This document shows, piece after piece, positions 232 through 18,733 of a DNA stretch of 18,925 nt (position 1 is its first letter; the number at the start of each line of letters is the position of its first letter). Source of the stretch: Bacteroidota bacterium (lineage in GTDB: Bacteria > Pseudomonadota > Alphaproteobacteria > Puniceispirillales > Puniceispirillaceae). The notes below the pieces were generated by a model that worked only from the letters and a program-made list of their open reading frames with translations, had not been told where the DNA came from and ran no database searches. The DNA lies in assembly GCA_009936825.1 (NCBI GenBank), contig JAACDV010000110.1, positions 1-18,925 on the forward strand. Reading direction: 5' to 3'. The translations under genes were made by a program, and so were the position numbers.

Positions 232-355
232 GCAGACCTATCTATATTAGCAGACCTATCTTTTTTGGCAGACCGGTCTATGTTAAAGGAATGGGTCTAT
301 ATTAAGGACCTATCTTTTATTCTGAACTTGGCTTTTTTGGATCTGGCGCGGGTCT
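232..355. repeat. Cluster of AGACC / GGTCT repeat arms after fliD
   Basis: AGACC occurs at 234-238, 252-256 and 270-274; the reverse complement GGTCT occurs at 275-279, 294-298 and 351-355; a variant GGACC is at 306-310. The 12-mer GCAGACCTATCT is repeated exactly at 232-243 and 250-261. AGACCGGTCT (270-279) is a perfect palindrome. The arms can form several mutually exclusive hairpins, some followed by T runs, so the cluster may be a degenerate multi-terminator. No function is known to me. Confidence 0.6.
291..317 (+). terminator. Possible weak terminator of fliD
   Basis: ATGGGTC (291-297) pairs with GACCTAT (307-313) with one G-T wobble and a 9-base loop, followed by CTTTTATT. The stem is short and AT-rich, so this is a weak candidate. 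It lies about 65 bases after the fliD stop. Confidence 0.3.
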
Positions 356-839
356 AGATAAAATCTAGAAAGCTGGATTGCTTTCTTACCAATTCTCCAA
401 ACGCCTCCAAATTCTCGTCATCTTCCAGCCGCCAGCCTGCCGGTGCAGATTGCTGTTGGTTGGAGCGCAGCCTATACACATAGGCTCTAAAAGATTTTCT
501 GATCAAATCTTCCGAATATTCCACCTGCTTTACCGGATCCTCGATCGAGCCAAACAAAGGCTTCATTTTTCTGGGAATGCCAACCCGCTCCGAATACAGA
601 CGGAAATGCGTAAATCCATCGAGTAAAGGTACTGCATTTTCTCCAGCTTCTATTTCGCCCAGAAACTCAATTAACAAAGCAGAGCTTGCGGCAAGCAACT
701 CCGGGCTGATCTCCGCATAGGTTTCTGACAAGCCTTCGGCGTATTTCTTCACCGCAGTTTCCATGGGAAATTCTGAACCAAGATATTCAGAGGCGATGCG
801 ACACACAGCAATTTCGAAAATCCAAGGGGGACAATACAC
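354..839 (-). CDS. Hypothetical protein, family not recognised
   Basis: Reverse-strand open frame of 161 codons starting at GTG (837-839) and ending in TAG. I do not recognise the family. The protein is acidic, apparently soluble and probably mostly helical, with no signal peptide or membrane segment. It has a central segment GFTHFRLYSERVGIPRKMK and an acidic C-terminal part ending EAFGELVRKQSSFLDFI. No Shine-Dalgarno precedes the GTG; an in-frame ATG at 762-764 (codon 26) also lacks one, so the start is uncertain. It sits between fliD and flagellin on the opposite strand. A possible sigma-70-like promoter lies about 35 bases upstream. Flagellar function is only suggested by position. It is not FlaF, FlbT or FliS as far as I can tell. 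Confidence 0.6.
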   Translation of the reverse strand: MYCPPWIFEIAVCRIASEYLGSEFPMETAVKKYAEGLSETYAEISPELLAASSALLIEFLGEIEAGENAVPLLDGFTHFRLYSERVGIPRKMKPLFGSIEDPVKQVEYSEDLIRKSFRAYVYRLRSNQQQSAPAGWRLEDDENLEAFGELVRKQSSFLDFI

Positions 840-1078: not shown

Positions 1079-1900
1079 ATGGCTCTTTCAGTAAATACAA
1101 ACGTCGCGGCTCTTAGCGCTAGCAATGCAGCCAGTTCAGTTAACCGTTCAATGGAAGCTTCCATGAACCGTCTTTCCACAGGCATGCGCATCAATGCTGC
1201 ACGTGATGACTCTGCCGGTCTGGCAATTGCATCACGGCTAACAGCTGAGGCCCGCGGTCTCGACATGGCAGCACGTAATGCTGCCGACGGTCAGGCACTC
1301 CTCGACACAGTAGAAAGTGCACATGCTGAGGTCGGTGCGATCCTTCAGCGGATGCGTGAACTTGCTGTTCAAGGTGCAAGTGACACCAACGGCACAGTCG
1401 ATCGCGAAGCGATCGTAACTGAACTGGATGCAATGATTGCAGAGATTGACTCCATTGCTGCAGACACCAAATGGGCCGGCAAAGATCTTATCTCAGCAGC
1501 CAATACATTCGTTTTCCAGGTTGGTGATGAAGGCGATGAGACTATCACGGTAACTACAAGTTTAGTGGCTTCGACAGCTCTGTCCGTTGATGGGACGTCT
1601 TCGTTGACGGCGGCTGGTGAATTCACAACCTTTATCGACACTGTCGACTCGGCGATCGCAGATATTGCATCTTACCGGGCAGATTATGGTGCAGTCAGCA
1701 ACCGTCTGGACCATGTAATGTCCCACCTTGCAACAAATTCAGAAAGCGTGAAATCTAGCCTTGGCCGTATTCAGGACACAGATTATGCTGCTGAAACAAC
1801 AAATCTTGCAAAGGATCAGATCCTGCAACAGGCAGCTACTTCAATGCTTGCTCAGGCAAACGCTTCAAAGCAGACAATTCTGTCACTGATCCAAGGTTAA
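1079..1900 (+). CDS. fliC: Flagellin, short form
   Basis: Filament subunit of 273 residues, exported through the flagellar type III system and polymerised under the FliD cap. The N-terminal D0/D1 domain (about 1-140) is canonical: MALSVNTNVAALSA, then MNRLSTGMRINAARDDSAGLAIA, then LQRMRELAVQGASDTN. The C-terminal D1/D0 domain (about 195-273) shows RLDHVMSHLATNSESVKSSLGRIQDTDYA and ends TSMLAQANASKQTILSLIQG. Only about 50 residues lie between, so the surface D2/D3 domains are essentially missing. That linker is rich in Thr/Ser around 155-185 and could carry O-glycans. There are no cysteines. Start ATG has SD CAGGAGA. A hairpin terminator follows directly, so the gene is probably monocistronic. 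The symbol fliC is used generically; alphaproteobacterial names such as fljK or flaA would serve equally. Confidence 0.96.
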   Translation: MALSVNTNVAALSASNAASSVNRSMEASMNRLSTGMRINAARDDSAGLAIASRLTAEARGLDMAARNAADGQALLDTVESAHAEVGAILQRMRELAVQGASDTNGTVDREAIVTELDAMIAEIDSIAADTKWAGKDLISAANTFVFQVGDEGDETITVTTSLVASTALSVDGTSSLTAAGEFTTFIDTVDSAIADIASYRADYGAVSNRLDHVMSHLATNSESVKSSLGRIQDTDYAAETTNLAKDQILQQAATSMLAQANASKQTILSLIQG

Positions 1901-1985: not shown

Positions 1986-3995
1986 TCACTTGGCTTTTGT
2001 TTTTATGGCACGCTCAATCTGATCTCCGACATAGTTGAGAACGGACCGCCAACTCCCTATGTCCTGTTGCCGGACCAATTTAATGCTGCGGTACCATGCA
2101 TTCGATTTTTTATCCAAACCCCAGCGCCAATCAGGCCAGAACGGAACCATAAGCAAAGTCGGCCTGCCAAGTGCGCCGGCCAGATGCACCACGCTGGTAT
2201 CAACGCTAACGATTAAATCCATATGCTCGCAAAGCGCCGCCGTATCGGAAAAATCACCAATGAGTTGATAATGCGTCTTCACATCATTGCGGATGGCTAG
2301 CGCTGCATGGTCAGTGTCCCGCAACTCTTTCTGAAGCAAATGATATTCGGCGCCAACTGGAAGATTTTTCAGAAACTCAGTCATATTCAGACTGCGGCAG
2401 CCATCATTGGCATGGTCGGAATTTCCGCTACACACAAATCCAACACGCAGTTTATCAGAGGCGCCAAGAATGCTTTCCCATTTTTCAATGCAGGCCGCAG
2501 GAGCGCTGAGATATTTTTGTGGCGCGGGGATATCATCCCACTGATCCGCAGTCAGATATGGCAGGCTCAACAACGGGCAGTGATGGTCAATTTTACCCAC
2601 ATTTTCGCCAACGCTGACCAGCTTTGCATCCGTATCCAGTGATTCCATCAATGAAAAGAGCGCGCGCGGAACGGCAAGGGTTACCTTAGCACCATTTCCT
2701 TGCAGAAACTTTATAAAGCGGCATGCCATGATGGTATCGCCAAAGCCCTGTTCGGGATGCAGCAGAATATGCTTTCCCTCAATATCGTCTAACGCATCCA
2801 GCAGAGGTTCAACACCCCGATAAGACGGCAGCAAACTGGCCTCGCGGTTGAACCGGCTTTCATAATATTTAAACCCCGCCTTATATTGCCCCTGCAAAAG
2901 CAAACACATGGATTTGTTGAACCGCACCGACTTTTTTTCAGGGTCTATTTTCTCCAGCTTATTGAACACCTCAATTGCTTCATCAATCTTGCAAAGCCGT
3001 TCAAGAACCACGCCCCTATTTCGGTGCAGAGAAAAATCATCCGGAAAATGCGTTAGAGTTTCGTCGATGTAAGCCAGAGCTTCTTTCATCAGACCAAGAC
3101 GGAAATAGCAGTTTGCGCGCAATTCCATTATATCGCGAAGTGTCGGGTCAAGGCTTAGCGCATGATTAGCGGCAAGAATGGCCAAATCAAACTGATCGAC
3201 TCCCATAAAACCATGGCACAGCAGCGACATAATCCTAGAATCATTCGGGGCTACATTTGCCATCGTGCGCGCAACTTCGAGAAACTCATCCATTTTCCTG
3301 TTTTTGAACAGGGCATGACATTGCAACTGACCTGCGCGCAAGTCTCTGGGATTTCGCTTGAGCAATAATGTTGTATTTGCCAGTGAAGCATCCCAGTTTT
3401 CTTGCTTCAAAAATATTTCGGATTGAGCAAGCAGCGCTTCACGGTTGGACGGTTCATCAAACAGAATTTTCTGGCAATATGACAGTGCCCGCTCATATTC
3501 GCCCCTCTCTAGATGCAGTCCGGAAAGCGCAATAAGTGTCGATAGATTGTCTGGGCGCAAGTGCATCGCAAATTCGAGTTCGGCAATTGCGCTCTCAATA
3601 TTCCCCATGGCGATCTGAATTTGACCGCGCTTGATAGGAAATTTGTCATCCCCTAAATCAGTAAGGTTTTCATGCGACAGCACAACCAGCGCCTCATCCG
3701 CCCGGCCGTGCTTTATCAACAGGTCTGCTAGATGAAGTGACGCTTCGGTAACCCATGGCGCATCCTGAATAATGAGTTTGAAAATGCCTTCGGCTTTCTC
3801 AAACTTTCCCAAATCAGTGCAGCAAATTCCAAACAGATTCAGCGCCTCGAACTCTATGTCATGCTCTTCAAAAAACTTTACATAAGCATCATGGGCACCT
3901 TGGATATCCCCTGCGAATTGCCGGTCAATGATGGCGTTTAAATCGCTGGTGGGCGGTGTGTTTGCGGGCTTTTGTGGAAAACCTATATCGTCCAT
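1986..3995 (-). CDS. TPR-repeat glycosyltransferase, FlmG-like (probable flagellin O-glycosyltransferase)
   Basis: 669 residues, soluble, no signal peptide. Residues ~20-375 are tandem TPR units, for example 'ALSGLHLERGEYERALSYCQ' and 'ANCYFRLGLMKEALAYI'. Residues ~405-665 form a GT-B domain of the TPR-linked GT9/GT41-like type: LHPEQGFGDTIMACRFIKFL, VGFVCSGN..HANDGCRSL, and VSVDTSVVHLAGALGRP followed by PFWPDWRWGLD. This architecture is that of Caulobacter FlmG, in which the TPR part recruits flagellin and the GT-B part transfers a nonulosonic acid sugar. The flagellin gene is the convergent neighbour. The frame is open up to a GTG at 4049, but that codon lies inside a sigma-54 promoter; ATG 3993-3995, preceded by AAGAAGAG, is therefore chosen. 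The sugar donor is unknown, and no sugar-synthesis genes are in the window. Domain call is strong; flagellin as substrate is inferred. Confidence 0.85.
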   Translation of the reverse strand: MDDIGFPQKPANTPPTSDLNAIIDRQFAGDIQGAHDAYVKFFEEHDIEFEALNLFGICCTDLGKFEKAEGIFKLIIQDAPWVTEASLHLADLLIKHGRADEALVVLSHENLTDLGDDKFPIKRGQIQIAMGNIESAIAELEFAMHLRPDNLSTLIALSGLHLERGEYERALSYCQKILFDEPSNREALLAQSEIFLKQENWDASLANTTLLLKRNPRDLRAGQLQCHALFKNRKMDEFLEVARTMANVAPNDSRIMSLLCHGFMGVDQFDLAILAANHALSLDPTLRDIMELRANCYFRLGLMKEALAYIDETLTHFPDDFSLHRNRGVVLERLCKIDEAIEVFNKLEKIDPEKKSVRFNKSMCLLLQGQYKAGFKYYESRFNREASLLPSYRGVEPLLDALDDIEGKHILLHPEQGFGDTIMACRFIKFLQGNGAKVTLAVPRALFSLMESLDTDAKLVSVGENVGKIDHHCPLLSLPYLTADQWDDIPAPQKYLSAPAACIEKWESILGASDKLRVGFVCSGNSDHANDGCRSLNMTEFLKNLPVGAEYHLLQKELRDTDHAALAIRNDVKTHYQLIGDFSDTAALCEHMDLIVSVDTSVVHLAGALGRPTLLMVPFWPDWRWGLDKKSNAWYRSIKLVRQQDIGSWRSVLNYVGDQIERAIKTKAK

Positions 3996-4032
3996 TTTCT
4001 CTTCTTTCGCTAGAAACCTGAACCTCCTAAAC

Positions 4033-4048
4033 AGCAAAATCTGTGCCA
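4033..4048 (-). promoter_or_regulatory. Sigma-54 promoter of the TPR-glycosyltransferase
   Basis: Reverse strand reads TGGCACAGATTTTGCT, against the RpoN consensus TGGCACGRNNNTTGCW; only one defined position differs, and GG and GC are separated by exactly 10 bases. Transcription would start near base 4022, leaving a leader of about 27 bases before ATG 3995. That length matches the other sigma-54 transcripts here. Confidence 0.85.
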
Positions 4049-4131
4049 CGCCCTGCGGCGCGCTGCGTTTTATGATGCAAAGCTGGCTTTCCGCCCACCA
4101 AATTTACCGCCGCATCTTTGATACATCCTGA

Positions 4132-4147
4132 TGGCATGAAGTTTGCT
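4132..4147 (+). promoter_or_regulatory. Sigma-54 promoter of the GT2-like gene
   Basis: Forward strand reads TGGCATGAAGTTTGCT: -24 GG and -12 GC with 10 bases between, and a full TTGCT at -12. Predicted start near 4158, giving a leader of about 34 bases to ATG 4192. It is divergent from the promoter at 4033-4048, with 83 bases between the two elements in which activator sites could be shared. Confidence 0.83.
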
Positions 4148-4191
4148 TAAAGAGGGAAGGATTTTTTCATCCACCTCACAAAGGGAGATAC

Positions 4192-5349
4192 ATGATGTCT
4201 TATTCACACCTCGCTATTACAGTCCTGTTTGACGGGTCTTTGGAGCGTCTGGGTACGTGTCTTAAAAGCATCGGCTCGCAGGTTATGCCGGCAAATACCA
4301 AAGTCAGCCTGTTGGTGGCGCATCGCAGTGACGAGATTTCTGTTGCCCAACTGCAGCCGCATTTAGACAACACCGACATAAAGGTCCAACTTGTCGAAAT
4401 AGATGATCCTCACAATGATAGCCTGATCTACCGGAACCAATCCATTGCCGCCCTCACTGCCTCAATTCCGCAAGACGCAGACTGGGTTTGGCTTTTTGAT
4501 GAAACGACTCGCCTCTATTCAAAAACGTCGTTGATAACGGTTGATGAGACGATCATGCGGTCTAACGACGCTGATTTTGATTTCATCCATCTTTGCCGTG
4601 CAAGTCGTTCAAACGATACCGGACAGCTTGAGGTCAGCAACGCAGTCAAGCTTTGCGAAGATCATGGCTATCATGAGATCTTTGGCAATATGGCATCTAT
4701 GGCGTTGAAAACAGAGGTTTTGAAGAACGCATTTGGACATTATTTTCAAGAGCATGTCAGTCTAGCCGTTACAACTGACACTGACCTGACAGAATTCACC
4801 CATACGAAGTTTCTTTATCTGGCGCTTTGCGAGGGCAAGGCTGCCCTTTTGGATCGCAAGATTGTTGAAACCCAACTCAGCAAATTTGACGAAGCTGCTG
4901 GTGACACTCTGGACATGACATCCTTCACCCTTATACAGGATTTGATCAATCTTGGTGAGGCAATTACTTTTAAACCCCGGTGGAGTCCGAAATTCTTTAG
5001 ATGCAATGAATCCTCTCTTTGGACAGAAACTCTGAAGCAGCAGGTCATAGTGCTGAATGGTTTGGATGAAACTTCCAATGCCTTTGATCAGGTTGCAGTA
5101 GGATTTATTGATAACTGGCAGGAGATTTGGCAGCTAGTAGATTTTATCAAATGCGAGAAGACCCAAGACCTACTCAGAAATTTGGTGAAAGATGCTCTTG
5201 GGAAAACACTCGATTGTCTGCGGGATGAGCGCCGTGATAAAAGTTTACTTCATGAGTTTCTGCGAATTGAAATCGAAAATCAGGATATCTATCCAACAAC
5301 GACCATCAATCTTGACGCTGGCGATGCGGCGATTAAGCTAACCGCCTGA
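4192..5349 (+). CDS. Putative glycosyltransferase, GT2 / abequosyltransferase-like
   Basis: 385 residues, soluble. The N-terminus (LAITVLFDGSLERLGTCLKS followed by IGSQ) resembles the first beta-alpha unit of GT-A family 2 enzymes ('xxVxxxxxxxxLxxCLxSIxxQ'). Residues ~97-104 (DADWVWLFDE) sit where GT2 enzymes carry the metal-binding DxD region, but a clean DxD is absent. DFDFIHLCRASR and FGNMASMALKTEVLKNAFG recall the abequosyltransferase-like subgroup. The last ~130 residues match nothing I know. SD AAGGGAG (4181-4187) serves ATG 4192 or the adjacent ATG 4195. A sigma-54 promoter lies upstream and the gene is divergent from the FlmG-like gene, so a role in building or transferring the flagellin glycan is plausible. 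The distant similarity makes the catalytic claim tentative. Confidence 0.6.
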   Translation: MMSYSHLAITVLFDGSLERLGTCLKSIGSQVMPANTKVSLLVAHRSDEISVAQLQPHLDNTDIKVQLVEIDDPHNDSLIYRNQSIAALTASIPQDADWVWLFDETTRLYSKTSLITVDETIMRSNDADFDFIHLCRASRSNDTGQLEVSNAVKLCEDHGYHEIFGNMASMALKTEVLKNAFGHYFQEHVSLAVTTDTDLTEFTHTKFLYLALCEGKAALLDRKIVETQLSKFDEAAGDTLDMTSFTLIQDLINLGEAITFKPRWSPKFFRCNESSLWTETLKQQVIVLNGLDETSNAFDQVAVGFIDNWQEIWQLVDFIKCEKTQDLLRNLVKDALGKTLDCLRDERRDKSLLHEFLRIEIENQDIYPTTTINLDAGDAAIKLTA

Positions 5350-9500: not shown

Positions 9501-9865
9501 TGAAGACCGGCGAAGAATTGCTCCAACGAGGTCCCGATATTGCTGTCCCCAGGCATAAGAATGGCCTGTATCTGCTCAAGGGCCCGCAAATAGGTGGTCG
9601 ATGTCTCGGTGCTTGCGGTGGCGTCACGAACCTTATTCAGCAGAAATCCATCAAACGACCGTTTGACGTCATTTACCCTGACACCCAGACCAGCGTTGCT
9701 GCTGACGCCCTAAACATCACCGCGAATACCGCTGACCTCATGCAGGTCTGCTTCCCGGCGCTTATAGCCTTCAGTATTCACATTGGCGATGTTCTGGCCA
9801 GTGACAGCCAGCGCCCTGCGATAGGATTGAAGACCAGACCGGCCAATGTCAAACAGGTTGGACAT
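6521..9865 (-). CDS. flgK: Hook-filament junction protein FlgK (HAP1), very long, interrupted by an in-frame TAG at codon 52
   Basis: FlgK is the first junction layer on the hook. The true start is ATG 9863-9865, three bases after the flgJ stop, because the N-terminus SNLFDIGRSGLQSYRRALAV then TGQNIANVNTEGYKRRE is the canonical rod/hook domain. Codon 52 is TAG (9710-9712). The same frame then continues (GVSSNAGLGVRVNDVKRSFD) to TAG at 6521, with C-terminal LDSEAANLIQQQQAYQASAR and ILSAAREIFQVLLDAV. Full length would be about 1114 residues, against ~550 in E. coli; the excess lies in the middle and includes NIQIFTREGRHIAG near 629. After the TAG the first usable start is a TTG at 9589, which would lose the N-terminal D0 helix. 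Sequencing error, recent mutation or read-through are all possible. Confidence 0.85.
9710..9712 (-). other. In-frame amber stop inside flgK
   Basis: The reverse strand reads GGT GAT GTT TAG GGC GTC in the FlgK frame, 51 codons after the ATG. The flanking residues on both sides fit FlgK. TAG is used as the ordinary stop of flgH, flgI, flgJ and of flgK itself, so a genome-wide reassignment of TAG is not likely. Confidence 0.9.
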
Positions 9866-9868
9866 ACC

Positions 9869-10171
9869 CTATTTCACCTGTCCTTCACACTGGCGGATAA
9901 GCGCTTCGGCAATGCCAAGATTAACCTGGCCCGCCATGCTGTTCGAATATTCGCGATCAAGCATCTCTTCATAAGTGGATTTTGCATTGCTACCGAAAAG
10001 GTCTTCGGCAAGCTTTGCTGAGCGCGCCTGTTTCAAAAACTGATTCAAAAAGATCGCTTCAAATTGCTCGGCTGCATCACGAAGTTCCGAATTGGGAGCA
10101 GGTGCAGGCATATGCGCGTCTTCGGCGGCATGACGAACCGCATCAAACATATTTGACATATCCATATTCAT
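9869..10171 (-). CDS. flgJ: Rod-binding protein FlgJ, short form without muramidase
   Basis: 100 residues corresponding to the N-terminal rod-binding domain of FlgJ: ELRDAAEQFEAIFLNQFLKQ, then AEDLFGSNAKSTYEEMLDRE and YSNSMAGQVNLGIAEALIRQ. This matches the family pattern 'AAxxFExxFLxxxLKxxR...Y..M.d..y...ma...GiG.a..i'. The C-terminal glucosaminidase domain of enterobacterial FlgJ is absent, as is usual in alphaproteobacteria, where a separate lytic enzyme opens the wall for the rod. ATG 10171 has SD GGGAG eight bases upstream; three more Met codons follow within eight residues. The stop is three bases from the flgK ATG, so translation may be coupled. Confidence 0.93.
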   Translation of the reverse strand: MNMDMSNMFDAVRHAAEDAHMPAPAPNSELRDAAEQFEAIFLNQFLKQARSAKLAEDLFGSNAKSTYEEMLDREYSNSMAGQVNLGIAEALIRQCEGQVK

Positions 10172-12964: not shown

Positions 12965-12980
12965 AGCAAAAGATGTGCCA
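12965..12980 (-). promoter_or_regulatory. Sigma-54 promoter upstream of flgG
   Basis: Reverse strand reads TGGCACATCTTTTGCT: full TGGCAC, full TTGCT, and exactly 10 bases between GG and GC. It lies in the 77-base flgF-flgG spacer. Predicted start near 12954, about 27 bases before the flgG ATG. Confidence 0.85.
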
Positions 12981-13798: not shown

Positions 13799-16700
13799 TT
13801 ATCTGATTTGAATGATTGTTTGGGTAAGGCCAGTTGTTGTTTCGATGGCCTTTGCCGATGCTTGGAAGTTTCGCTGGGCGGTAATCAGATTGACCAACTC
13901 TTCGGTAATATCGACGTTCGAGCGTTCCAGTGAACCAGACAGGATATTACCATACCCTTCGGACCCGGCCTCACCAACCTGTGGATTTCCCGAAACAGCC
14001 GTTTCGGTGTAGGTCGCGTTTCCGATCTGCTTTAGACCGTTCTGGTTGTTAAAGTTGGCAACAACAATCTTACCAAGCGGGTTGTTCTGACCGTTGGTAT
14101 AGTTGGCACGGATCGTTCCCGATGAATCGATCTCGATACCGTCCAACCGGCCAGACGTAAATCCATCCTGATCCACCGTCAGAACCGAGAAAGGCTGGGC
14201 CAACTGGGTTGATGACGAGAAGTCAACATCCAGCGAAATTGACAAGCCTTCTTCCTGCTTCTCGTAATGGACAAGGTTTTTCGGGCTGACCAGCTTACCT
14301 GTCTTATCAAAGGTCAATTCACCCTCATCGATGTAAAGTGGATAATAGCCTTCAACCATATTTTCTGGTGGGTTGGTAACAACCTCGCCATCGGCATCAA
14401 CATAAAGCGCAACGCCTTCGGAGTCGGTTGCTTGAACCAGATTGTAAATTTCTGGAACCGAGCCAACTCCCAAGGGAACATCATCAAGTCCAAGACGCGC
14501 TGCACCCTTAACCTTAATAGTTGAGTCAGACCCCATCGTGCCCGTGGAAAAGGTGAAGGAGTTCGAATCACTGCTATAGCCTACCGTTACACCGCCAATA
14601 GTATCTCCGGTGACCGGATCAACAATCTGGTTAATCCGGGTTTGCAGAGCATCGGCCAAAGTGGTGCCAACATAAGATGTGGCAGGCACTTCGATGATAC
14701 CGCTGATGCCATTCACCGAGACGTTGAAAATATTGTCACCGTTCTGGGTGGACAGCTTGAAAACATTGGTCAACGGCTCGTTCGCACTGGCACCAACCGC
14801 TTGGGCTGTTTCTGCTTGTAGGCCAGTTCCAGCGGTAAACAGAAAATCGTTCTTTGAAGCTCCAACACCCAGCAGTGAATTATCACCATTGCCGATGATT
14901 GTGCCATCAACGTCATAGGCCTGTTCAACACGCGCGCCGGTGGTCTCACTGATGAAATAGCGGCCAACCTGAATGTTCGAGGCTTTTTGCTGTTCATTCA
15001 CCCCAATGGCACCGTCCTTGGCAATCGCCTCGCCGGTCGTACCACTGGATATTGAGAAATTCTGCAACTCACTATTATAGGAAACTTTAATACCATAGCG
15101 TTTGTCATTTGGCTGAATTTCTTCACCAGTCGCAACAAAGGGATCACCGTATAGAACCTCACCGCCACGGATTTGGACGCGCTGCGCATTATCCGAATTA
15201 GTCAGACCCAGATTGTTGGTACCAGTCTGGGTGGCAGACCCATAAACCGAAAATGAGTTGAAGTTAGAATCTGTACCACTACCAAGAACCGTACGATCAA
15301 CCTCAAAACTCAAACGCTGATTTGTTTCATCATATCCAACCTTCACAGGCGGATTTTTCTCGTCTACCCAATCCACACTTGATTTACTCAGGCTTGTCGT
15401 TGTAGCGGCAGTGGAAGTAACTGTAGCAGCAACTCCTCCGCCAAGAGCAGCACTAAAAGCTGATACTGTATCAGTCGTCGTGACACTGAAATCTGTCATA
15501 TCGTCACGATTGACATACATTTTCGCAAGGGTTGTATCGGTAGGTGCTGGTGACACCGTGGCAATGTCCGCACTGGTATCACGCCATGACGTTGCAGAGG
15601 TTTTAAAAACCGCCTCACCGGCTGCATTAACAAAAGTGAAAGAAAAGCCCTTTAAATCTGTTAAAGCATCAAGAGCGTCTTTAACAGCCGTCAGACCGGA
15701 TCCAGCCGCAGGGCTAAGTCCAAGATCACCGGTTGCGATAGTTAGCGAATTCGTGCCGTCAGTGAATGTCAGGTCGAGATTATCGTTGTCTGCTAATACG
15801 GGTTCAGTAATTTCCATCGGACGCTTAAGGTTTTGCAATCCTAGTAAAGCCAAATTCGTGGCGAGGGTTGCCCCTTCCGTACCATTTGTGATTTTCCACT
15901 CACTGGCAACAAATGAACCTGATGACGTATCGGCAGTGGTTCCTTGTTGTTCACGAATTATGATACGCTGACTACTGTAATCTTCCTGAGCTCCTGCATA
16001 GACTGGATAGGATCCCTCAAAAAATGCTTCAACTGTTGGTTCATCATCCGAAGGGCTAGTTAGCGCAAATACAGTAGTGGCGGCGCTATCGATGATGTTA
16101 AAATCTTCATCAGCAACAGCCAGACCTGATGTACTCACATCCACATATTTGTTGCCGCCGGCGTCCGTTCCTGTAGATGAAATCAGGAAACTGCGGCCAT
16201 TAAGGTCGCCGCGAAAATTCTCATTTCCTGCCAAAGTAATTGAACGACCTTGTTCGTAATCAGTTAAATCTGCACTTGTATCAAGGTAGATTCTCAGGCG
16301 GTTCTCCGTCGAGGCATACTCAATCAAATTGGTTCCATTACCTGCCACCGAGTCATTTACGGTATGAACGCTGAGACTAGGACGCTTGTTGTAATATGAA
16401 TGCACCATGTAGTGGTTGTCGCTAGGCGCGTCTGTGCGCTCCAACTTTACAACTTGTGTGTATTCATAAACCGCCGAAATCGTCTCACCTTTGGACTTGA
16501 CGAACTGCAATCCACCAACGCCCAGCGGATCATCACTATAGGTACGGCCATAGGTATTAAGAGTGTCGTTTATGCGCAGTTGTGAGTGAGCCAGAAACTC
16601 TTCCTTGGTGCAGTCCGGCGAGGTACCCGTGATCGAGAAATCGTCACCCAGCCCCTCAGTCACAAACGTATCAGTGCCAAGAAGTTCGACGGACACTTTG

Positions 16701-17953
16701 TTGGTAAGGTTGGTTACCGCGCCATCAGCGCCAACACGCTGAAAATCCAGCGTGATTGTGTCATCAACATTCTGTTCAACCTGGAATTTGCGATCATCAC
16801 CATAGGCAGCATTAATGGCCCGCTCAACTTCATTAGCAAGCTGATCGGCATTATAAAGGCCCGGGTTAATATCGATGCTAACGGGCTGGTCAGAATCATC
16901 TACATTCACCAGCAGAAAATCTTTGCCCCAGTAAACCTCACTACCCGTATTACCGGCTTCACGCGTTGATTTGAACTGTAGCGGGTCGGTAACAATCTCA
17001 ACCAGCTTGTCACCCTCTTCACCAAAATCAAAACTGGTTGTCTCTCCGCTGATTTTAGCCGGCTGCGATGGAACAAGAGATCTCAGATCATCCAACTTGT
17101 ACAACGGCGATCCCTTGCCCTCGATAAAGTAGTTGTCGTCTGGAATAGCTGTTGTCTGTTGGCCAAAGCGATCGATAAACTTCTGGCTGCCAGATTCATC
17201 AACCGCGCTCACCAAATCCGGGGTAATGATTGTGTCATTGATCACCAGGCGGGTGTCATATTTATTAGTCGGATCGTCGGCAGACGCAGCTTGCGTCTTA
17301 ATGAAATACACCGTGGCAATCGTTGGGTTACCAAGATCGTCAAAAATCGTGATTGAAGTTGAATTGGTAAAGCTATTCGGATCATCCGGGCTGAATGTAT
17401 AGCCGTCAACAAATTGTGAACGATTTGGCACGACGTCTGACGCCGCATTTACGTTTACACCGAGATCGATGTTGGATGTTGCCTGCGGCTCACCAGACGT
17501 CACTGGCAGTTGCAAAGGCACCGCACTGTCAAGGTCTTTGGCAGTCACCGATCCGTCAGTGTTCACTGGATATGTCAAAAGATACTGACCGGCCGAATCC
17601 ACAACATAGCGGTCATTATTGACGTTGAGCGAGCCGTTTCGAGTGTAAACTGTCTGCGCCGACGTCAGCGACGGCTTCAACGCGAAAAAGCCCTGTCCCG
17701 AAATCGCAAGATCAAGAGCGTTTAGCGAGGAGGCAATGTTACCTTGCGTAAACTGCTGCTTAATCCCTTTCAAGATCGTGCCTGAACCAATCGAAGATGA
17801 TGCGTTCTGCAACGGTGAAGTGGCAAAAATATCACCAAATTCCACCCGACTTCGTTTAAAACCCGTTGTACCAACGTTGGCAATGTTGTTTGACGTTGCC
17901 GAAATGTCTGCTGAAGAACCGTTCAGTCCTGTTAGCGCGGTATAAAACGACAT
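13799..17953 (-). CDS. flgE: Flagellar hook protein FlgE, giant form (1384 aa)
   Basis: FlgE polymerises into the hook, the flexible joint. Both ends are canonical: N-terminal SFYTALTGLNGSSADISATS, NNIANVGTTGFKRSRVEF and LDLAISGQGFFALK; a D2-like start NSTSITIFDDLGNPTIATVY (~200-220); and C-terminal LGKIVVANFNNQNGLKQIGN, GSLERSNVDITEELVNLITA then QRNFQASAKAIE. Length is more than three times the ~400 residues of E. coli FlgE; the excess of about 1000 residues is in the surface domains. At least three related segments recur there: VGYDETNQRLSFEV (from 872), VSYNSELQNFSISSGTTG (from 957) and VGYSSDSNSFTFSTGTMG (from 1124). The only cysteine I find is residue 448. ATG 17953 has SD AGGAGAG. A sigma-54 promoter precedes it. 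Confidence 0.95.
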   Translation of the reverse strand: MSFYTALTGLNGSSADISATSNNIANVGTTGFKRSRVEFGDIFATSPLQNASSSIGSGTILKGIKQQFTQGNIASSLNALDLAISGQGFFALKPSLTSAQTVYTRNGSLNVNNDRYVVDSAGQYLLTYPVNTDGSVTAKDLDSAVPLQLPVTSGEPQATSNIDLGVNVNAASDVVPNRSQFVDGYTFSPDDPNSFTNSTSITIFDDLGNPTIATVYFIKTQAASADDPTNKYDTRLVINDTIITPDLVSAVDESGSQKFIDRFGQQTTAIPDDNYFIEGKGSPLYKLDDLRSLVPSQPAKISGETTSFDFGEEGDKLVEIVTDPLQFKSTREAGNTGSEVYWGKDFLLVNVDDSDQPVSIDINPGLYNADQLANEVERAINAAYGDDRKFQVEQNVDDTITLDFQRVGADGAVTNLTNKVSVELLGTDTFVTEGLGDDFSITGTSPDCTKEEFLAHSQLRINDTLNTYGRTYSDDPLGVGGLQFVKSKGETISAVYEYTQVVKLERTDAPSDNHYMVHSYYNKRPSLSVHTVNDSVAGNGTNLIEYASTENRLRIYLDTSADLTDYEQGRSITLAGNENFRGDLNGRSFLISSTGTDAGGNKYVDVSTSGLAVADEDFNIIDSAATTVFALTSPSDDEPTVEAFFEGSYPVYAGAQEDYSSQRIIIREQQGTTADTSSGSFVASEWKITNGTEGATLATNLALLGLQNLKRPMEITEPVLADNDNLDLTFTDGTNSLTIATGDLGLSPAAGSGLTAVKDALDALTDLKGFSFTFVNAAGEAVFKTSATSWRDTSADIATVSPAPTDTTLAKMYVNRDDMTDFSVTTTDTVSAFSAALGGGVAATVTSTAATTTSLSKSSVDWVDEKNPPVKVGYDETNQRLSFEVDRTVLGSGTDSNFNSFSVYGSATQTGTNNLGLTNSDNAQRVQIRGGEVLYGDPFVATGEEIQPNDKRYGIKVSYNSELQNFSISSGTTGEAIAKDGAIGVNEQQKASNIQVGRYFISETTGARVEQAYDVDGTIIGNGDNSLLGVGASKNDFLFTAGTGLQAETAQAVGASANEPLTNVFKLSTQNGDNIFNVSVNGISGIIEVPATSYVGTTLADALQTRINQIVDPVTGDTIGGVTVGYSSDSNSFTFSTGTMGSDSTIKVKGAARLGLDDVPLGVGSVPEIYNLVQATDSEGVALYVDADGEVVTNPPENMVEGYYPLYIDEGELTFDKTGKLVSPKNLVHYEKQEEGLSISLDVDFSSSTQLAQPFSVLTVDQDGFTSGRLDGIEIDSSGTIRANYTNGQNNPLGKIVVANFNNQNGLKQIGNATYTETAVSGNPQVGEAGSEGYGNILSGSLERSNVDITEELVNLITAQRNFQASAKAIETTTGLTQTIIQIR

Positions 17954-17989
17954 TCTCTACTCTCCTGTGACCAATTCAGTGGCCATTTC

Positions 17990-18005
17990 TGCAATTTCTG
18001 TTCCA
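17990..18005 (-). promoter_or_regulatory. Sigma-54 promoter upstream of flgE
   Basis: Reverse strand reads TGGAACAGAAATTGCA: GG and GC separated by 10 bases, full TTGCA at -12, one change (C to A) within the -24 TGGCA. It lies in the 84-base flgD-flgE spacer. Predicted start near 17979, about 26 bases before the flgE ATG. In Caulobacter the hook operon is also sigma-54 dependent. Confidence 0.75.
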
Positions 18006-18037
18006 GTGTGAAAACCGAAACTCAAAAAATAAAAATC

Positions 18038-18733
18038 TTAGCGGCGAAACTTCGCTACTTCAGCAGCGCGAACAGCGCCGTAATCCTCAACATCCAGCAT
18101 CACACCCGTTGTTGCGTCGCCCGTTGAGGCTGCCAGAACTTGAGCAAAAACGCTCGGTGTCAGGTTTTCCATCCCTTTGCCCATATCGGCATACGCATCA
18201 ATGCGCACGACAGAACCGCTGTTGCGAATTGATTCGGGAAGCTCGGTCCATGCAAAACCAACCAGCCCCGATGCCTGCGCACCAAGATCGATGCTGTGTA
18301 GAATTTCGCCAGCTTCGTTGGTGAATGTAAGATTGGTGGTACCGGACGCGGACGGCAGATCCAGCATGCCATGGATTTCGCCATCTTCATCCGGGCGCGC
18401 ATAATTGCCAGGCACCATGACCGAACTTCCAAGGAGATTGGTGGCAGTGGCCATCCGGAACTCGCCAAGCTGATCAGCGATCCCGGACAGGGTCGTGCCC
18501 ATTTCGGTGATCCCTGTCACAGTTGAAAACTGCGCCATCTGCGCGATGAATTCTGCGTTTTCCATTGGTGCAAAAGGATCCTGGTTTTGCAGCTGAGTGG
18601 TCATCAGCTTCAGAAAATCCGCCTGACCAAGAGAGTCCTTGCTCCCACTCGCCTCTTTTTCCTCAGCGTTAACGCCAAGTTTTTTGAGAATGCTGTCCAG
18701 TTGTGACTGGCTTGATGGATCGATAGTGCTCAT
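18038..18733 (-). CDS. flgD: Hook-assembly scaffold protein FlgD
   Basis: 231 residues, the usual size. FlgD is the temporary cap on which FlgE assembles into the hook. The conserved N-terminal part is [40 protein letters not shown] and ITEMGTTL (~35-85), a textbook FlgD signature. It is followed by a middle region ([11 protein letters not shown]) and a Tudor/FnIII-like C-terminal half ([25 protein letters not shown]). ATG 18733 is preceded by GGAGAG. The gene begins 17 bases after the flgC stop, so the two are co-transcribed. The canonical FlgD next to a giant FlgE suggests the enlargement of the hook subunit is not matched in the cap. Confidence 0.95.

Follow-up and report, generated by a model that had tools for sequence, protein, structure and literature searches.

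A likely sigma-54-controlled flagellar glycosylation gene pair in an alphaproteobacterium, with a GT2-related protein of changed donor site

Two divergently transcribed genes lie beside the flagellin gene in an 18,925-nucleotide stretch of alphaproteobacterial DNA (assembly GCA_009936825.1, contig JAACDV010000110.1; hereafter the window). The reading that explains them best, and which we consider fairly likely, is that they form a flagellar glycosylation module controlled by sigma-54. Sigma-54 would switch on both genes during flagellar assembly. The reverse-strand product (TPR-GT) would bind flagellin, or a hook protein, through its tetratricopeptide repeat (TPR) part, and its intact GT-B part would transfer a sugar, in the manner of FlmG in Caulobacter. 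The forward-strand product (the forward protein) would act with TPR-GT, either as an accessory (pseudo-glycosyltransferase) subunit or as a transferase with altered donor handling. It is most likely a non-classical partner of TPR-GT, because it has a degenerate donor/metal site but retains other family-invariant residues. We infer the substrate, activity and partnership of the two proteins from sequence.

Results

Sigma-54-type sites precede both genes

Sites of the pattern TGGCAY-N5-TTGC were scored on the strand of each gene from -200 to +45. The window contains three mismatch-free sites, the two of the gene pair and one before flgG, against a mean of 0.21 and a maximum of 2 in 300 first-order simulations. 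A correctly oriented site would arise by chance in a given 200-base stretch with a rough probability of 0.0011, and before both genes with one of 1.3e-6. With two mismatches allowed, the pattern is uninformative (30 matches versus 25 expected). The two sites of the pair are 83 bases apart.

The first-pass annotation had described a TPR/GT-B gene and a gene for a GT2/abequosyltransferase-like protein, diverging from two such sites next to flagellin. This layout was confirmed, the second gene encoding 385 amino acids, and the sites themselves are conserved in relatives of both genes (the loci are described below). Among forward-family genes, an exact site precedes 14 of the 16 that could be tested and a site with one mismatch 15 of 16, the exception being L092:3433-4596; the corresponding figures for unlabelled open reading frames (ORFs) of the same loci are 3/88 and 6/88 (Fisher 1e-12). 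When kin are grouped at at least 60% identity, eight of nine groups have an exact site. Beyond L001, the forward-family site is exact in 11 further genomes and present with one mismatch in 12. Sigma-54-type sites are a trait of the forward family.

Across the loci, every flgG gene carries an exact site (8/8). Exact sites are absent before rfbF (0/8), rfbG (0/9), methyltransferase (0/10), epimerase (0/7), transketolase-half (0/14) and flgI (0/8) genes. Flagellin-like genes have exact sites in 4 of 14 cases and fliD in 1 of 4 (3 of 4 with one mismatch), and the single rmlC has a one-mismatch site. For TPR-GT genes the count is 3/23 exact (window, L001 and G014) and 5/23 with one mismatch. In three of the genes the site is located at -11 or within the longest ORF, and the true start of these must be further in. 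The sites before the pair show a -24/-12 element at a fitting distance that is conserved in relatives, as flagellar sigma-54 promoters do, and we infer that they function as promoters.

The arrangement recurs next to flagellin

A scan with the alignment of the reverse protein found L001, a contig of a Rhodobiaceae metagenome-assembled genome (JAAZUU010000004.1). It retains a TPR-GT gene (44% identity), a gene for a 385-amino-acid protein (30% identity, E 2.5e-57), both sites, flagellin and a relative of the 161-amino-acid ORF of the window. A chance neighbourhood was rejected as an explanation of the pair, given this recurrence and the promoter sites. In G014, listed among the relatives of G001, the contig starts with the C-terminal part of a sister-type forward-family protein, its donor half cut off, followed by TPR-GT with an exact sigma-54-type site, flagellin, flgL and flgK. 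A search for the pair next to flagellin in related genomes, proposed earlier as a check, found it in L001 and with a fragment of the forward gene in G014.

In 61 genomes (G001 and its relatives), TPR-GT was detected at E ≤ 1e-20 in 19 and flagellin in 36; by listed coordinates TPR-GT lies within 5 kb of flagellin in five (G001, G014, G024, G045 and G058). One stretch of G024 (L102; C1:2240000-2258000) holds four TPR-GT ORFs beside five flagellin-like ORFs, and is a case of multiple flagellins with several transferases. Viral contigs queried with the TPR-GT alignment yielded no relative.

L001 also contains genes which, from their translations, we take to be rmlA, C, D and B. After them on the same strand comes a gene for a DUF5672 protein (17225-18098, reverse strand; E 7e-18) with its own exact sigma-54-type site. 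Since the rml-like genes precede the DUF5672 gene on the same strand, deoxythymidine diphosphate (dTDP)-rhamnose is a candidate sugar in L001. TPR and PF18922 (DUF5672) occur together in one protein, P0106. Because of this combination and of the site beside the rml-like genes, DUF5672 may be another flagellar glycosyltransferase.

TPR-GT has an FlmG-like layout

The longest ORF of the reverse gene encodes 687 amino acids and begins inside its own promoter, so the start is probably the ATG at 3995, giving 669 amino acids. Pfam recognizes TPR repeats, and a C-terminal Glyco_transf_9 match is weak (E 1.8e-5; 24.6 bits versus a cut-off of 22). An N-terminal TPR domain followed by a C-terminal GT-B-like domain is the layout of the FlmG class as described in PMC7591256, and the FlmG-like label given to this protein earlier is borne out to that extent. 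The alignment of the reverse protein has 13 members. Over 168 TPR-GT domains, 28 columns are at least 85% conserved, and the window protein keeps 27 of them (the exception is C522 for W); its GT-B part appears intact in the conserved columns.

The forward protein descends from GT2

By itself, the forward protein matches no Pfam family even at E 10, so neither PF00535 nor any other model of glycosyltransferase family 2 (GT2) was hit directly, and an NCBIfam scan gave only noise. Across a 29-member forward alignment, Glyco_tranf_2_4 reached E 0.018 in three members and GlfT1 E 0.0046 in two, while the unrelated Rap1_C reached E 0.00066 in 24; all of these are at noise level. A search of solved structures gave one match at E 2.4, further searches there gave none, and plasmids and PHROGs provided no useful match.

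A direct search of about 5.8 billion proteins returned only a copy of 98% identity. With the L001 sequence added, and the best 7997 word-sharing candidates scored, 27 proteins were listed, the 98% copy included, none with a Pfam domain. A profile of these 27 picked up longer homologues in three genomes (E about 1e-32 to 1e-35). Full-length relatives of this kind, from a low-GC (guanine plus cytosine) alphaproteobacterial family, match Glycos_transf_2 (PF00535) in all eight scanned, the first three above the cut-off. Profile-profile comparison (hhalign) of the forward family with three PF00535-matching relatives gave a probability of 99.5% and E 4e-22 over 335 columns; a reversed-sequence control had no match at E 10. 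These relatives and this alignment place the forward protein in GT2 by descent. That GT2 is simply the wrong label was considered and rejected on the same two grounds. The GT2 assignment of the first-pass annotation, which called the protein abequosyltransferase-like, was therefore right as to ancestry, by way of the relatives; the single sequence, lacking a Pfam match, does not prove it.

The forward family is rare in the genomes searched. Of 136 genomes in the order to which G001 belongs, its profile matched one, and in a sample of 385 from the class it matched four. A wider profile matched five of that sample, 12 of the 32 low-GC family genomes and 14 of 398 drawn from across the phylum; 13 of these 14 matches cover the N-terminal GT2 part only, and the remaining one is G001.

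The donor site is changed in the forward protein

GT2 enzymes carry a DXD/DDD motif for metal and donor and an S-T-D nucleotide motif. Ten donor-motif columns, chosen from these motifs, are all invariant, GDDD included, in a 14-protein sister clade. The window protein has D-E-T-T for G-D-D-D and E48 for D. It keeps 1 of the 10 columns versus 22 of 40 other sister-invariant columns (hypergeometric 0.011, the ten having been picked from GT2 motifs). In eight distant GT2-like proteins, T13, D48, D104, D105 and D106 (window numbering) are kept in 8/8 and the other five columns in 3 to 7; these eight were drawn in by a profile containing the motifs, which biases the check towards motif retention, and the five residues were chosen after the event. 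None of the five is present in the window protein, and the window branch (17 representatives) keeps them in 0, 6, 14, 13 and 0, respectively.

On the tree, column 48 changes nine times, more than 98% of columns do; columns 104 and 105 are close to average in their rate of change, with zero change in the sister clade. Fourteen columns are invariant in both branches, among them C135, C155, E162, D221 and R270. A sequencing error is an unlikely source of the change, since the 98% metagenomic copy shares D-E-T. The donor/metal site is relaxed in the window branch and changed in the window protein. Retention of the fold, as judged from sequence relatives, and of some pocket residues with loss of the donor motifs points to an accessory role or altered chemistry.

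The forward protein had earlier been proposed as a second working glycosyltransferase. With 1 of 10 motif columns kept, that proposal is not supported, and a "two enzymes" scheme for flagellin decoration is doubtful. An ordinary active enzyme that adds a second sugar to the glycan begun by TPR-GT, using its remaining acidic residues D103 and E104 or no metal, is nevertheless a possibility to be taken seriously, if a minority one. Sister-clade proteins with full GT2 motifs precede sugar genes, E162, D221 and R270 are invariant in both branches, and D104 and D105 persist in most of the wider branch of the window; moreover, some GT-A enzymes work without DXD, and so loss of the motif is no proof of inactivity. 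Against it stands the selective loss of donor columns noted above. Because the donor site is changed, a non-catalytic partner is at least as likely as the two-enzyme scheme. We tentatively propose that a GT2 was recruited to the flagellar sigma-54 regulon, that its donor site was lost in one lineage, and that it is now the dedicated partner of the FlmG-type enzyme. Equally tentative is what such a partner might do, for example presenting flagellin or holding the growing glycan, in which event the forward protein would found a family of flagellar pseudo-glycosyltransferases.

Sugar genes follow the GT2 gene in a low-GC family

The low-GC family, to which one of the three genomes with longer homologues belongs, comprises 32 genomes of 0.9 to 2.0 Mb, from which 12 loci of 27 to 29% GC were fetched. 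FlgK exceeds the cut-off in 20 of the 32, and two of three genomes tested have flagellin, on the contig of the GT2 gene and some 20 kb away from it. Sugar genes follow the GT2 gene in 11 of 12 loci, L092 having neither of the two cassettes. Genes resembling cytidine diphosphate (CDP)-glucose cytidylyltransferase and CDP-glucose 4,6-dehydratase (labels by similarity) follow it in eight of 12, and the two proteins of L062 exceed NCBIfam cut-offs. In L062, L063, L064 and L096-L099 the order is GT2 gene, then rfbF-, rfbG-, C-methyltransferase- and epimerase-like genes and two transketolase-half-like genes; L099 has its rfbG frame broken into two ORFs. This cassette has the appearance of a branched CDP-dideoxysugar pathway preceded by a sigma-54-type site. 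Downstream of the GT2 gene in L093 come an RfbH gene (above the cut-off), a fusion of cytidylyltransferase and phosphatase, and a NeuB-family gene (Pfam); the sugar of L093 is not named here, since NCBIfam scores fall under the equivalog cut-offs. The cassettes of L094 and L095 resemble that of L093 by eye, and in all three loci about 6 kb, occupied by several other genes, separates the GT2 gene from flgG.

TPR-GT genes are present in 11 of 12 loci, and the twelfth genome has one on another contig. In L091 the copy in the locus is short and contains stops, a better copy lying about 6 kb further on. The GT2 family occurs in 12 of 13 low-GC genomes with TPR-GT at E ≤ 1e-100 and in none of the 19 others, kinship being uncorrected and the cut-off chosen after the list was seen; at E ≤ 1e-20 the counts are 12/23 versus 0/9.

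Other features of the window

We take the window to be an alphaproteobacterial flagellar cluster, in which the end of fliD and flgL, J, I, H, G, F and D were named from translations; flagellin, FlgK and FlgE are backed by a library scan. The order is fliD end, 161-amino-acid ORF, flagellin, the divergent pair and then flgL, K, J, I, H, G, F, E and D on the reverse strand (Table 1). The 161-amino-acid ORF (354-839, reverse strand) has no Pfam match; with relatives near flagellin or FliD in L001, L089, L090 and L101, it is an unnamed conserved flagellar gene. The flgK gene contains an in-frame TAG at 9710-9712 (reverse strand), at about codon 52 (start near 9865); beyond it the frame is open and resembles L001 FlgK, and the TAG reflects either a genuine nonsense change or an error of sequencing. 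FlgE is long (1384 amino acids; 13799-17953, reverse strand), and many FlgK frames of the low-GC family have about 1640 to 1795 amino acids, some being cut by contig ends.

Table 1. Positions of the gene pair and associated features in the window
Feature	Positions	Strand	Support or equivalent
Flagellin, 273 amino acids, likely substrate	1079..1900	+	Flagellin_N E 2.9e-34, Flagellin_C E 3.7e-23
TPR + GT-B protein, 669 amino acids, FlmG-like layout, predicted transferase	1986..3995	-	Pfam
GT2-derived protein, 385 amino acids, near-orphan by direct search, donor site degenerate	4192..5349	+	
Sigma-54-type site before TPR-GT gene, TGGCACAGATTTTGC	4034..4048	-	L001 equivalent 9895-9909 (+)
Sigma-54-type site before forward gene, TGGCATGAAGTTTGC	4132..4146	+	L001 equivalent 9821-9835 (-)
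Codons 103-106 of forward gene, D-E-T-T (sister clade G-D-D-D)	4498..4509	+	
Sigma-54-type site before flgG, positive control within the window	12966..12980	-	

Discussion

Several observations weigh against a sigma-54-controlled flagellar glycosylation module. The flagellin gene of the window has no upstream site with at most one mismatch (nor has that of L001), and no site was scored for any TPR-GT gene in the low-GC loci. In the wider branch, 14 of 17 representatives retain D104 and 13 retain D105, for which reason the donor-site change is partial outside the window protein. By tree distance, the TPR-GT domains of the low-GC family are far from that of the window (138th nearest of 167 others), hence simple joint inheritance does not account for the pair; descent of TPR-GT and GT2 as one unit was rejected as unsupported. 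Finally, nine of the 12 low-GC loci hold an O-antigen-ligase-like gene (Pfam Wzy_C, PF04932, shown for L093).

This last observation keeps alive, in the low-GC family, the view that the pair or the forward protein serves lipopolysaccharide (LPS) or another surface polysaccharide and is near flagellar genes by chance. The genes in L001 that we take for rml lie within the same 22 kb, and a distant GT2 relative in L125 sits beside a gene read by eye as RfbH-like. We nonetheless hold this view to be improbable, given the sigma-54-type sites before most forward-family genes, the flagellin neighbours in the window, L001 and G014, and the TPR-GT layout shared with FlmG. Homologues found mainly in LPS loci had been named beforehand as grounds for abandoning the module; the near relative in L001 provides none, and the low-GC loci leave the matter as just described.

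The module might instead decorate large hook or hook-associated proteins (FlgE of 1384 amino acids; FlgK of 1113 in L001) rather than flagellin. Within the window, a site precedes flgE (with one mismatch) and flgG (exact) but not flagellin, and the low-GC family likewise has long FlgK frames. The pair, however, adjoins flagellin in the window and in L001, and FlmG, the sole studied protein of this layout that was found, modifies flagellins according to PMC7591256, which makes hook proteins an unlikely main target, if slightly less so than LPS.

In Caulobacter, a single TPR-GT is reported to be enough to glycosylate flagellin when the sugar is available (PMC7591256). Here a second gene family has the flagellar type of promoter in two distinct alphaproteobacterial lineages. 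In one lineage, the forward family heads runs of exchangeable sugar genes, and offers a sequence handle by which flagellar glycans of uncultured bacteria might be predicted. Should the window branch prove catalytically dead, it would serve as a test case for the conversion of a sugar transferase into a non-catalytic helper of protein glycosylation. A narrow search, which says little of the literature in general, found no paper combining 'pseudoglycosyltransferase' and 'flagell'.

Among the closest known systems is FlmG of Caulobacter crescentus, also an alphaproteobacterium. Given pseudaminic acid, it is reported to be required and sufficient for flagellin modification, and it combines an N-terminal TPR with a C-terminal GT-B part in 596 amino acids, compared with 669 here (PMC7591256). 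The likeness is one of layout rather than of sequence alignment, with TPR-GT here standing beside flagellin. The window differs in having a GT2-derived partner that diverges from TPR-GT under sigma-54-type sites. Neither 'RpoN' nor 'second glycosyltransferase' appears as a term in the main text of PMC7591256. Classical GT2 proteins (PF00535) are represented by the sister clade, whose members match the model and precede CDP-sugar genes or an RfbH-type aminotransferase gene, whereas the window branch has changed donor/metal motifs and escapes Pfam. Several putative glycosyltransferases are likewise devoted to flagellin in the type B modification of Clostridium difficile, the opening of whose abstract mentions neither TPR-GT nor a sigma-54 pair (PMC5207246). 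The O-chain clusters of Pelagibacterales are also sugar gene clusters in small-genome marine alphaproteobacteria (PMC11898729), but that order is stated to lack flagella, unlike the low-GC family with its flagellin and FlgK.

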